Shown: piece after piece, positions 36,126 through 57,938 of the stretch
Numbering within the stretch: the first letter of the stretch is position 1
Layout: every line of letters begins with the position of its first letter
Source: Phenylobacterium sp. J367
GTDB taxonomy: Bacteria; Pseudomonadota; Alphaproteobacteria; Caulobacterales; Caulobacteraceae
NCBI RefSeq assembly: GCF_024699985.1
Contig: NZ_JAJONA010000001.1
Coordinates: forward strand, 248,001-312,000
DNA: 64,000 nucleotides
Reading direction: 5' to 3'
Made by a program: the position numbers and the translations under genes
The notes under the pieces: model-generated
Told to the model about the DNA's origin: nothing
Database searches by the model: none
Seen by the model: the letters and a program-made list of their open reading frames with translations, nothing else

Positions 36126-37155
36126 ATGAGCGTGCTTCATCTCCTGGGGACGGCGGGCGAAGGCGGGGCCGAGACCTACTTCGTCGACCTGGTCGCGGCG
36201 TTGCAGCGCGCGGGCGTCGCCCAGGCCTGCGCCATCCGGCCGAACGCCGGGCGCGAGGCGGCGCTGACGGCGGCGGGCGTCCATGTGAAGACGCTGTCGT
36301 TCGGCGGTCCGCTCGATCTTCTGACCCGGCGCAAGGCCGCGGCCTTCGCGAAGGCCGAGGACGCGAAGGTGGCGCTCGCCTGGATGAACCGGGCGGCGCG
36401 ACATACGCCGAAGGGCCCCTGGGCGCGGATCGGCCGCCTCGGCGGCTACTACAATCTCAAGTACTACCGCGGCTTCGACCACCTGGTGGCCAACACCGAG
36501 GACATCGCCGAGTGGATCGTCGGCCAGGGCTGGCCGGCCGGCCGGGTCAGCTGCATCCCGAACTTCGCCGCCGTCCCCGACGAGGCCGCGCCGCTCGACC
36601 GGACTACCCTGGACACGCCGGAGGACGCGCCCCTGCTGCTGGCCATGGGTCGGCTGCACGAGGCCAAGGCCCATGACGTCAGCCTGCAGGCGCTGACCGA
36701 ACTGCCGGGCGCCTGGCTGTGGATCGCCGGCGTGGGCGCCCAGGAGGGCAAGCTGAAGAGCCTCGCCCAGGCGCTGGGCGTGGCCGAGCGCGTGCGGTTC
36801 CTGGGCTGGCGGCGCGACGCCTCGGCGCTCTATCGGGCGGCGGACGTCTGTGTCTTCCCCCTCGAGGTACGAGCCGCTCGGCAATGTGGTCATCCAGAGC
36901 TGGGCGCACGGGCTTCCCGTCGTCGCGGCCGAGAGCCAGGGGCCGAAGGCGCTGATCCGGTCCGGCGAGGATGGCCTGCTGGTCCCGATCGACGACCCGG
37001 CGGCGCTGGCCGCCGCCGTCCGCCGCCTGATGGACGAGCCGCTGCTGAAGGTCCGGCTGGCCCAGCGGGGGCTGGCGCGGGTGGAGGCCGAGTTCTCGGA
37101 GGCCGCCGTGGTCGCCGCCTGGAAGACCCTCTTCGCCGACTACGGGGCCGCCTGA
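36126..37155 (+). CDS. Glycosyltransferase, GT4-like (frameshifted)
   Basis: About 343 residues. N-terminal G-T-A-G-E-G-G-A-E-T-Y-F and C-terminal donor-site segments (L-L-L-A-M-G-R-L-H-E-A-K; R-V-R-F-L-G-W-R) show a GT-B retaining enzyme. The frame breaks at C5 36857-36861: one C fewer gives V-C-V-F-P-S-R-Y-E-P-L-G-N-V-V-I-Q-S-W, the conserved acceptor/donor loop. The stop is directly followed by the asnB ATG. It probably makes a surface or secreted glycan; acceptor unknown. Confidence 0.83.
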
Positions 37156-38934
37156 ATGTGCGGCATCGCGGGCGTGCTGGGCACCGGAGCCTCGGCCGGG
37201 GCCATGATCGCCGCCCTCACCCACCGCGGTCCGGACGGCGTGCGGGTCGAGGACCTGCCGGGCGCCAGCCTGGCCCATGCCCGGCTCTCGATCATCGACC
37301 TGGAGGGCGGCTGGCAGCCGCTGCACGCGGCGGGCGCGACGGTCATCGGCAACGGCGAGATCTACAACTATGTGGAGCTCGCCGAGGAGCACCAGCTCGC
37401 GGGCCAGCTCGCCACCGGCTCGGATTTCGAGCCGCTGCTGCACCTCTATGCGAAGGAAGGCCCGGCGGCCTTCGCCCGGCTGCGCGGCATGTACGCGCTC
37501 TGCCTGATCGGCGGCGACGGTCGGACCTGGCTGGCGCGCGACCCGTTCGGGATCAAGCCGCTCTACCTGCTGGAGCTCGACGGCGGCCTCGCCTTCGCCT
37601 CCGAGCCGCGGGCGTTCGTCACGGCGGGGCTGCTGAGGCCCGAGCTGGACGAGGCGCGGGCCGCCGAACTGCTGGGCTTCAACTACACGCTGGGCGAGGC
37701 CGCGATCTTCAAGGGGGTGCGCAAGCTCGCGCCCGGCGAGGTCGTGGAGGTGAAGGACGGGCGGGTGGCCTACAGCAAACGCGTCCCTCCCTTAATGGGG
37801 AGGGACAGATCGCCGAAGGCGATCAGGGTGGGGAGGGCCGCCATGAGCACAGAGCCCGGCCTACACATCCCCACCCCGACGGCTGCGCCGTCTGCCCCTC
37901 CCCATAAAGGGGAGGGAGAGCTCATCGCCCAGCTCGACGCCGTGCTGGAGGACAGCGTGCGGGTTCACCAGCGGTCCGACGTGCCCTACGGCCTGTTCCT
38001 CTCGGGCGGCATCGACTCGGCGGCGATCGCCACCCTGATGGCGCGGCTCAACGAGCGGCCGGTGACCGCCTTCACCTGCGGCTTCGACGCCCCCGGCGCG
38101 AAGGACGAGCGGGCCCAGGCCGAGAAGGTGGCCACGGCCCTGAACCTCGACTGGCGGGAGACCAGCTTCGGCGAAGCCGACTTCTGGCGGATCCTGCCGG
38201 AGGTCGCCTGGGCGCTGGACGATCCGACCGCCGACTACGCGACGCTGCCCACCTGGAAGCTGGCCGAGGCCGCCAAGGGGACCCTGTCCGTCGTCCTCAC
38301 CGGCGAGGGCGGCGACGAGCTGTTCGGCGGCTACGGCCGCTATCGCCGGGCGCTCCGCCCCGCCTGGCTGGGCGGCCGGCCGGCGGAGCCGCGGCCCGGC
38401 GACCCGGCGGTGCTGGCGCGCTGGCGCGAGGCGGCCCGGGCTCCGAAGGGGCTCACCCGGCTGCAGCAGGCCCAGTGGAGCGACGTCGCCACCTGGCTGC
38501 CCAACGACCTGCTGCTGAAGCTCGACCGCTGCCTGATGGCGCATGGCCTGGAAGGCCGCACGCCCTTCCTCGACCCGGAGGTGGCGGCCTTCGCCTTTCC
38601 GCTGGCCGACCGTTTCAAGGTGCGCGGGCGTTACGGCAAGTGGCTGCTGCGCAAGTGGCTGGGGCGGACCTGCCCGGCGGCCGAGCCGTGGGCGCGCAAG
38701 CAGGGGTTCACCGTGCCGGTGGAGGCCTGGATCGCGCCGCGCGCCGCCGACATCGCGCCGCGGCTCAGCCGGGTCGAGGCCGTGCGCCGCGTCCGGCCCG
38801 ACGCCGAAGCCATCTTCGCCGCCGGCGGGGAGGGACAGCGCTGGCCGCTGCTGTTCTTCGCCGTCTGGGCCTTGATCCACCTGCAGGGCGCCTCACGTAC
38901 AGAGGCGCTGGAAGCCATAGCCGGGAGACCCTGA
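37156..38934 (+). CDS. asnB: Asparagine synthase (glutamine-hydrolysing) with an in-frame repeat insertion
   Basis: Amidates aspartate or a related acid in an ATP-dependent reaction. 592 residues. Catalytic Cys2 (M-C-G-I-A-G-V), glutaminase loops (G-N-G-E-I-Y-N-Y), then the PP-loop S-G-G-I-D-S and G-E-G-G-D-E-L-F of the synthetase domain. Residues about 210-254 (V-P-P-L-M-G..H-K-G-E-G) are encoded by a palindromic repeat inserted in the linker between the two domains, without breaking the frame. Without it the length would be about 547, normal for the family. The neighbouring glycosyltransferase suggests a role in an envelope polymer. The stop overlaps the next start by one base. Confidence 0.88.
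37784..37917. repeat. Palindromic repeat element inserted in asnB
   Basis: 134 bases bounded by two hairpins: TCCCTCCC/GGGAGGGA (37784-37805) and CCCTCCCC/GGGGAGGG (37896-37916). Inside are a GATCGCC-GAA-GGCGATC hairpin (37808-37824), a GACGGC/GCCGTC hairpin near 37878-37892, and a long-range pair GGGTGGGGA/TCCCCACCC. The same plan occurs at 46013-46180 and 57801-57938 between genes. It resembles the way Rickettsia palindromic elements enter coding sequence. Confidence 0.85.
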
Positions 38935-41509: not shown

Positions 41510-41625
41510 GGCGTCTCTCCCTTGGCGGGAGATTGGGCCAACTTCCATCCCGGCACAAAGCCTCCTGCGGGCGGGGACGCTGGGCGTCACGGGCGGGCTC
41601 GGACACGACCTTGATCCGCCCCTTC

Positions 41626-41941
41626 TCCGCTCATCCCGGCGAAAGCCGGGATCCAGGCTGAGTCGGTTTGGAACACTGGATTTCGCGGGTTCTGGCCGGC
41701 GGGCTCGGTGCGGTCCGGGGTTGGAACCACAGAAACACACAGAAGCACACAGAAGGGGCTGAGCGGGCGGAGGACGGTGAGATGGCGGGCGTGGCTCGCG
41801 CGCCTGGAAGGCGCGCATGGTGATGGAGGCGCCAAGCCATCCGGTGGCCCGCCTTCTGTGTGGTTCTGTGTGGTTCTGTGGTTCGCGCGCAGCGCGGTCG
41901 CTGAGTCAGCTTGGATCCCGGCTTTCGCCGGGATGAGCGGA
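41626..41941. repeat. 316-base nested inverted-repeat element
   Basis: Fills most of the only non-coding gap over 300 bases (41510-41947). The outer arms of 36 bases (41626-41661 and 41906-41941) match as inverted repeats at 35 positions and each contains its own hairpin CCCGGC-GAAA-GCCGGG. The inner arms of 33 bases (41724-41756 and 41852-41884) match at 31 positions and are made of roughly 10-base CACACAGAA units. No transposase frame is inside. It looks like a non-autonomous element or fold-back repeat. Confidence 0.8.
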
Positions 41942-41947
41942 GGGGGG

Positions 41948-57800: not shown

Positions 57801-57938
57801 CCCTCCCCCTCAGGGGAGGGGCAGCTCGCGTCGCGAGCGGCGTGGGGAATCGCGCCCTGCACTTCGTCGCGGAACTTGAACCTGACATCCCCACCCGGCG
57901 GCGCTGGCGCGCCGTCCGCCCTCCCTGGAGGGGAGGGA
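57801..57938. repeat. Palindromic repeat element, intergenic copy
   Basis: 138 bases between the Lrp gene and the convergent peptidase gene. Bounded by CCCTCCCC-CTCA-GGGGAGGG (57801-57820) and CCCTCCC..GGGGAGGG (57919-57937), with an inner GCTCGCG-T-CGCGAGC hairpin (57823-57837) and a GTGGGGA/TCCCCAC long-range pair. Same family as 37784-37917 and 46013-46180. Confidence 0.8.

Follow-up and report, generated by a model that had tools for sequence, protein, structure and literature searches.

How does a palindromic DNA repeat come to be read as part of a conserved enzyme, and is such an event at one gene an isolated case or one of many? The question is raised by a stretch of 64,000 nt from Phenylobacterium sp. 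J367 (here called the window), in which the gene of asparagine synthase carries a repeat between its two domains. The closest named relatives of the host genome belong to Phenylobacterium (Caulobacteraceae).

The element inside asnB

The asnB gene is located at 37156..38934 on the forward strand and encodes a glutamine-hydrolysing asparagine synthase of 592 amino acids, as indicated by an open reading frame, the Pfam domains Asn_synthase and GATase_7, and a structure-model match. The first-pass annotation had suggested that a copy of a repeat forms the interdomain linker and leaves the frame and both active sites intact. The frame is indeed open, and a strong coding signal in one and the same frame is present on both flanks of the element (GC by codon position.73/.47/.97 and.71/.47/.98). 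The GATase_7 glutaminase domain (residues 41-155) and the synthase domain (260-531) lie on either side of the insert, and the PP-loop residues S283-S288, which show little or no variation among 43 relatives, are present.

The element itself, a member of what we call family A, is 137 nt long (37783..37919, forward strand), has no stop codon in the frame of the gene and provides linker residues ~210-255. All of its parts lie on the forward strand, with the inverted repeats nested within each other. The terminal hairpins, recognised from the sequence, are CCCTCCCTTAATGGGGAGGG on the left (37785..37804) and CCCTCCCCATAAAGGGGAGGG on the right (37896..37916); the inner hairpins, supported also by the RNA fold, are GATCGCC-GAA-GGCGATC (37808..37824) and GACGGC-TGC-GCCGTC (37878..37892). 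Between them, a central stem is formed by the arms GGGTGGGGA (37826..37834) and TCCCCACCC (37868..37876), likewise seen in both sequence and fold. The predicted RNA fold has an energy of -92.2 kcal/mol (z -7.7), none of 200 shuffled sequences folded equally well, and in this fold the two inverted hairpin ends pair into a larger hairpin. No Rfam family covers the element at the gathering threshold, the sole match in the window being a tRNA.

The AlphaFold model of AsnB is of moderate confidence (mean pLDDT 74.5) and resembles TsnB9 (7ylz) and E. coli AsnB (1ct9). Between a strand (203-209) and a helix (253-271), pLDDT falls below 50 over linker residues 213-248. The insert is thus predicted to be a disordered loop between the two domains, and the expectation that the insertion point would be a loop agrees with the model.

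The six proteins closest to AsnB outside the linker (P0003, P0006, P0004, P0008, P0009 and P0007; 86-87% identity) are all 562 amino acids long, with short linkers and no insert, as had been anticipated for close orthologues. The claim of an insert of about 45 residues has to be divided: the element does span residues ~210-255, but compared with these insert-free relatives the net gain is 30 residues (592 vs 562 in the protein, 55 vs 25 in the linker), because ~15 residues of the ancestral linker are gone. In other words, the element replaced ~15 residues and added 30 net.

Besides itself, the element matches at least 39 further places in the host genome, of which the top ones reach 75-77% along almost the whole element (E 6.7e-19); this is a lower bound, obtained by merging 79 two-strand matches and scoring 40 of 104 candidates. 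The element is therefore not a product of chance. Five other genomes contain 38-66 two-strand family-A matches each (the query being the copy at locus L032). Two other families found in asnB linkers, B and C, are also repeated in genomes; for example, one genome (G054) has, besides the C element in its AsnB, a further copy with 93% identity to it.

Almost all other copies lie outside genes. A scan of the window gave three sites, and asnB alone was flagged as lying within a coding frame; a second family-A copy of 137 nt at 57801..57937 (genome position 305801), found by its ends, was not flagged. The placement control covered 370,954 host bases around part of the A, B and C copies and contained 109 elementary or 95 composite sites. 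Five of the 95 were flagged by a two-sided coding signal, and two are in frame and stop-free within genes, i.e. the asnB element and a short C piece in a 5-oxoprolinase gene, the one further in-frame copy that the genome check disclosed. The A copy in the same 5-oxoprolinase, a third site within a gene, is out of frame with two stops, and the remaining two flagged sites are also out of frame and have stops. We note that the 5-oxoprolinase locus (G000:C1:2215179-2215903) contains two elements of different families and that its frame is broken at the A copy. The linker of asnB is thus confirmed as a copy of a genomic repeat.

The window also contains a composite of 328 nt at 41620-41947 in which family-B ends surround another inverted repeat (of the ACCACAGAAACACACAGAAG type), so that it looks like one repeat nested within the ends of another family. 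Comparable pairs of B ends, with a spacing of ~310 nt, are found at other places in the host genome.

Insert families in relatives and in other enzymes

Among 194 classified AsnB proteins, 108 have an in-frame insert belonging to one of eight motif families and 86 have none, a frequency of inserts that is inflated because the relatives were chosen by similarity to an inserted query. The segment is accordingly not common to all orthologues, and it does resemble repeats outside genes. The family names are peptide-motif labels of this analysis: DNA matches underlie A, B and C; five further motifs, D-H, were seen among the closest AsnB proteins and have no source name, D, E and H being assigned by peptide matches in several genomes and F and G weakly. 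In a peptide search of 13 genomes (E up to 0.01), D was found in 12, E in six and H in five, with stops at some of the places, and F and G gave weak matches in two genomes each. Besides A, the connector is occupied in relatives by in-frame repeats of four or more kinds, or by none. No match to E, F, G or H was found in the host genome.

The linker DNA was compared within the genus in a sample of 70 loci (30 best matches and 40 others, among 99 genomes with a match), 68 of which could be parsed. Eight of these carry A, three B and nine C; 44 linkers are short and four are long without a match. Two loci outside the 68 have a C-like linker peptide (L050) and a short C-like piece (L056). As to the long linkers without an A, B or C match, L057 and L168 are anchor misreads and L052 resembles a decayed C. 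The asnB of L043/L071 encodes a protein of 595 amino acids whose long linker gives no match to families A-C and may be an insert that has decayed completely.

Family C occurs in the asnB linker in all three reading phases. Beyond the genus, B was found in Caulobacter sp. (L131) and in a member of the Caulobacterales (L100), and C in Caulobacter segnis FS (L101), Brevundimonas aveniformis DSM 17977 (L107) and L105. Inserts are present in the AsnB of named isolates, i.e. C. segnis FS, B. aveniformis DSM 17977 and P. aquaticum (P0061).

The recurrence of the pattern over many independent assemblies, isolates included, makes it extremely improbable that the insert is an artefact of assembly or sequencing, and the asnB frame is intact. 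What could be held in favour of an artefact is the completeness estimate of 83%, low for a genome of two contigs, and the state of the neighbouring gene: the glycosyltransferase upstream of asnB (36126-37155) seems to be frame-shifted near 36850, requiring two frames. That shift may be a genuine lesion or an indel introduced by assembly, and it fits the low completeness estimate.

The same pattern is seen in a second enzyme. Among the 120 closest 5-oxoprolinase proteins, examined by peptide motifs rather than DNA, a family signature was found in the HyuA-HyuB linker of 81 of 105 parsable sequences (A 24, B 18, D 13, H 12, a further motif I 12, F 1 and G 1). Of 118 sequences, 31 are long at a second loop. 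5-Oxoprolinase thus repeats the AsnB pattern at two sites. A third case is an Lhr-type helicase (L220, genome G030) with an in-frame C element at 1499-1626, between the Pfam domains DEAD and Helicase_C.

Further loci were scanned for elements inside genes. Loci L181-L239 come from nine genomes including the host and were the best matches to asnB elements, so that the sample is not a fair one; their 53 sites gave 12 flags on 11 sites, namely five in asnB, three in oxoprolinase (L183, and L225 twice), the one in the helicase, and three out-of-frame ones (one in L209 and one on each strand of L235), of which two contain stops. Twelve further A loci with 14 sites yielded asnB and, in one locus (L325), three flags that fit no gene frame; the two flagged A loci there were rejected as decorated genes, as they have no consistent gene frame. 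In the named asnB loci (19 sites), all 11 flags fell within the asnB linker. Finally, 14 of the 16 loci from the family D and E searches, examined for ORFs of at least 120 amino acids with a motif match, contained no decorated gene with a two-sided coding signal.

Turnover of the linker and its explanation

The history of the linker was followed on a tree of 212 AsnB sequences from which the linker columns had been removed; 18 of these have no state, their linkers being degenerate, half or unclear. Thirteen of the 225 unique proteins were excluded: 11 were partial or distant sequences, and in P0043 and P0066 the linker was unparsed. At least 45 changes of family are needed among the 108 inserted tips (60-66 in 20 shuffles), and at least 32 changes between insert and none over the 108 inserted and 86 uninserted tips (58-74 in shuffles). 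With the five best-supported families, A-E, only (102 tips) there are 40 changes (50-56 in 10 shuffles), and with A-C only (80 tips) 27 (31-41 in shuffles). When branches with support below 95 are collapsed, approximately 32 family and 20 insert/none changes are left, and 20 independent insert/none pairs are located on supported branches. Since the labels fit the tree better than shuffled ones, many inserts must be inherited rather than new, yet the linkers do turn over.

Close pairs illustrate this turnover. P0030 (B) and P0085 (no insert) are 97.8% identical outside the linker, P0005 (A) and P0079 (C) 96.3%, and P0034 (D) and P0057 (C) 95.1%. Judged from sequence, the P0085 linker seems to be the joined ends of a B element, i.e. 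an apparent excision. Partial forms also occur: L084 and L130 retain one hairpin and L154 half an element, and their relatives carry whole elements.

It is conceivable that few insertions took place and that homologous recombination between species then exchanged linkers together with flanking asnB sequence, as the gene is conserved enough for this. In two of 13 close pairs, differences beside the linker are in excess of expectation (P0030/P0085, 6 vs 1.8; P0005/P0079, 6 vs 3.0), and in these an asnB segment has perhaps been exchanged. When the 13 pairs are summed, however, there is no excess (53 seen vs 53.7 expected), which argues for insertion and replacement over the import of long segments, with the two pairs as possible exceptions. 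Several unrelated families are present; C is found in three phases, although internal indels could shift the phase as well; B and C reach Caulobacter, Brevundimonas and other Caulobacterales at 61-66% AsnB identity; and 5-oxoprolinase has the same pattern at two sites. We therefore consider recombination an unlikely explanation of the pattern as a whole, and it would in any case still require several independent insertions.

We think it probable that the AsnB linker is one of many independent palindrome insertions at a connector which tolerates almost any peptide. It is very likely that selfish-looking DNA has been inserted, lost and replaced many times at this linker. According to the mechanism we propose, small non-autonomous palindromic elements would insert genome-wide and nearly all intragenic copies would be purged, those in the flexible glutaminase-synthetase linker being able to survive. 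The surviving copies would then decay, lose their middle and be overwritten by the next element.

Of the 186 frames of the 31 full-length A copies, 73 are open, and 26 of the 186 combine an open frame with a length that is a multiple of three; about one in seven in-gene placements of family A would thus be expected to come out in frame and free of stops. Adaptation of family-A elements to in-frame reading was considered and rejected: the 30 copies outside asnB have 71 of 180 frames open, the shuffle mean being 98.7 (sd 5.7), and all of 200 shuffles had as many open frames or more. As the open frames are fewer than in shuffles, survival at permissive linkers after indiscriminate insertion would suffice.

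The inserts could alternatively be selected, either since the mRNA hairpin slows translation between the domains or since the peptide tunes domain movement. The mRNA fold is very stable, and the AsnB site lies between two folding domains, as do those in oxoprolinase and the Lhr-type helicase. On the other hand, in 44 of the 68 loci from the genus the linker is short and gives no match, and degenerate, half and apparently excised forms exist. The families moreover differ in sequence and phase, so that a shared peptide is not kept. Selection is in our opinion quite unlikely. The peptide contributed by the insert is most probably no more than a neutral, disordered spacer.

The ends of the 31 full-length family-A copies in the host genome, located by terminal hairpins of the kind described above, bear on the manner of insertion. 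T and A stand directly outside the ends in 30 of the 31. Adjoining direct repeats of at least 3 bp, as expected of a target duplication, were found in none; repeats of 3-4 bp appear in three copies when offsets up to 2 are allowed. Two bp are shared at the ends in 15 copies, which is due at least in part to complementary outermost bases (20 copies). It could be argued that elements enter certain DNA sites, for instance existing palindromes, and that asnB has such a site. It is conspicuous that different families share the same few places, and the composite at 41620-41947 would agree with entry into an existing repeat. Nevertheless, the insertion point varies by several codons among relatives, and the lack of adjoining duplications in the A copies also speaks against targeting, to which we give little chance. 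Mobilisation by a RAYT transposase is weakened as an explanation, as no match to the Y1 transposase domain PF01797 was found in the host genome (completeness estimate 83%); the domain was found in three of 13 genomes.

Going beyond insertion and tolerance, one could speculate that the linkers of a few enzymes are safe harbours which unrelated palindromes enter preferentially and overwrite, and which keep creating protein sequence that differs between near-identical strains. We regard this stronger version as possible but doubtful.

Since the Rickettsia elements, it has been debated whether selfish palindromes supply new sequence on which protein evolution can work. The present case provides many pairs of closely related alleles of a single assayable enzyme, which differ in whether they carry an element or in which one they carry, as well as two more sites in a second enzyme. 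The case shows that one linker can be rewritten many times within a genus, which calls for caution before such linkers are called conserved or functional. The reuse of the site by several unrelated families across the genus is absent from the first-pass annotation.

Relation to known palindromic elements

The first-pass annotation compared the insert with Rickettsia palindromic elements (RPE), which are described as palindromes of ~150 bp that sit in frame in genes unrelated to each other; 44 gene insertions are reported for R. conorii, and of 12 homologues in other places 11 lie inside ORFs (PMC10969869). The likeness, which is one of description, holds for the element itself: a palindrome in the range of ~100-150 bp (here 137 nt) that is in frame, stop-free and within a conserved ORF. 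It does not extend to the genomic distribution, since a large share of RPE copies is described as lying in ORFs whereas here two of 95 composite sites sit in frame within a gene, nor to the use of a single site by several families.

Intragenic GTAG/CGTC REPs offer a further comparison. They are reported to occur in ORFs, many as dimers or groups, to add 20-30 amino acids and to be possibly neutral in flexible linkers or loops; in recB of X. campestris and X. oryzae different REPs occupy about the same site (PMC3733652). That example as described concerns one pair of species, whereas here we see dozens of changes and several families at one linker, genus-wide. Caulobacter does not occur in the main text of that article. 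REPINs are reported to be mobilised by RAYT transposases, their two inverted ends forming a hairpin, with excision of doublets and with REP doublets described as spreading extragenically (PMC3116915). The hairpin of two inverted ends is common to both systems, but the Y1 transposase match is lacking in our host genome.

Family-A copies have terminal inverted repeats like those of IS-derived MITEs and differ from them by the absence of an adjoining target site duplication of at least 3 bp. Enterobacterial RU-type MITEs are described as MITE-like intergenic repeats with open frames that are also found inside genes (PMC2759123); the genes reported there are scattered over several species, in contrast to the serial reuse of one linker here. 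A related genus provides the Caulobacter CIR, an intergenic repeat. GANTC sites were found in 19 of the 31 full-length A copies (a raw count), and together with the complementary outer bases they make a link of family A to the CcrM-associated repeats of Caulobacter possible. CIR is reported as strictly intergenic, whereas the copy in asnB is intragenic and has no GANTC.

We found no literature report of such repeats in asparagine synthase or in Phenylobacterium linkers, and no precedent for several families occupying the same linkers one after another throughout a genus, in a search covering few subscription papers. In comparison with the systems described, palindromes read in frame are thus known from RPE and intragenic REPs, and what is new is the genus-wide, serial occupancy of the same linkers by many families.
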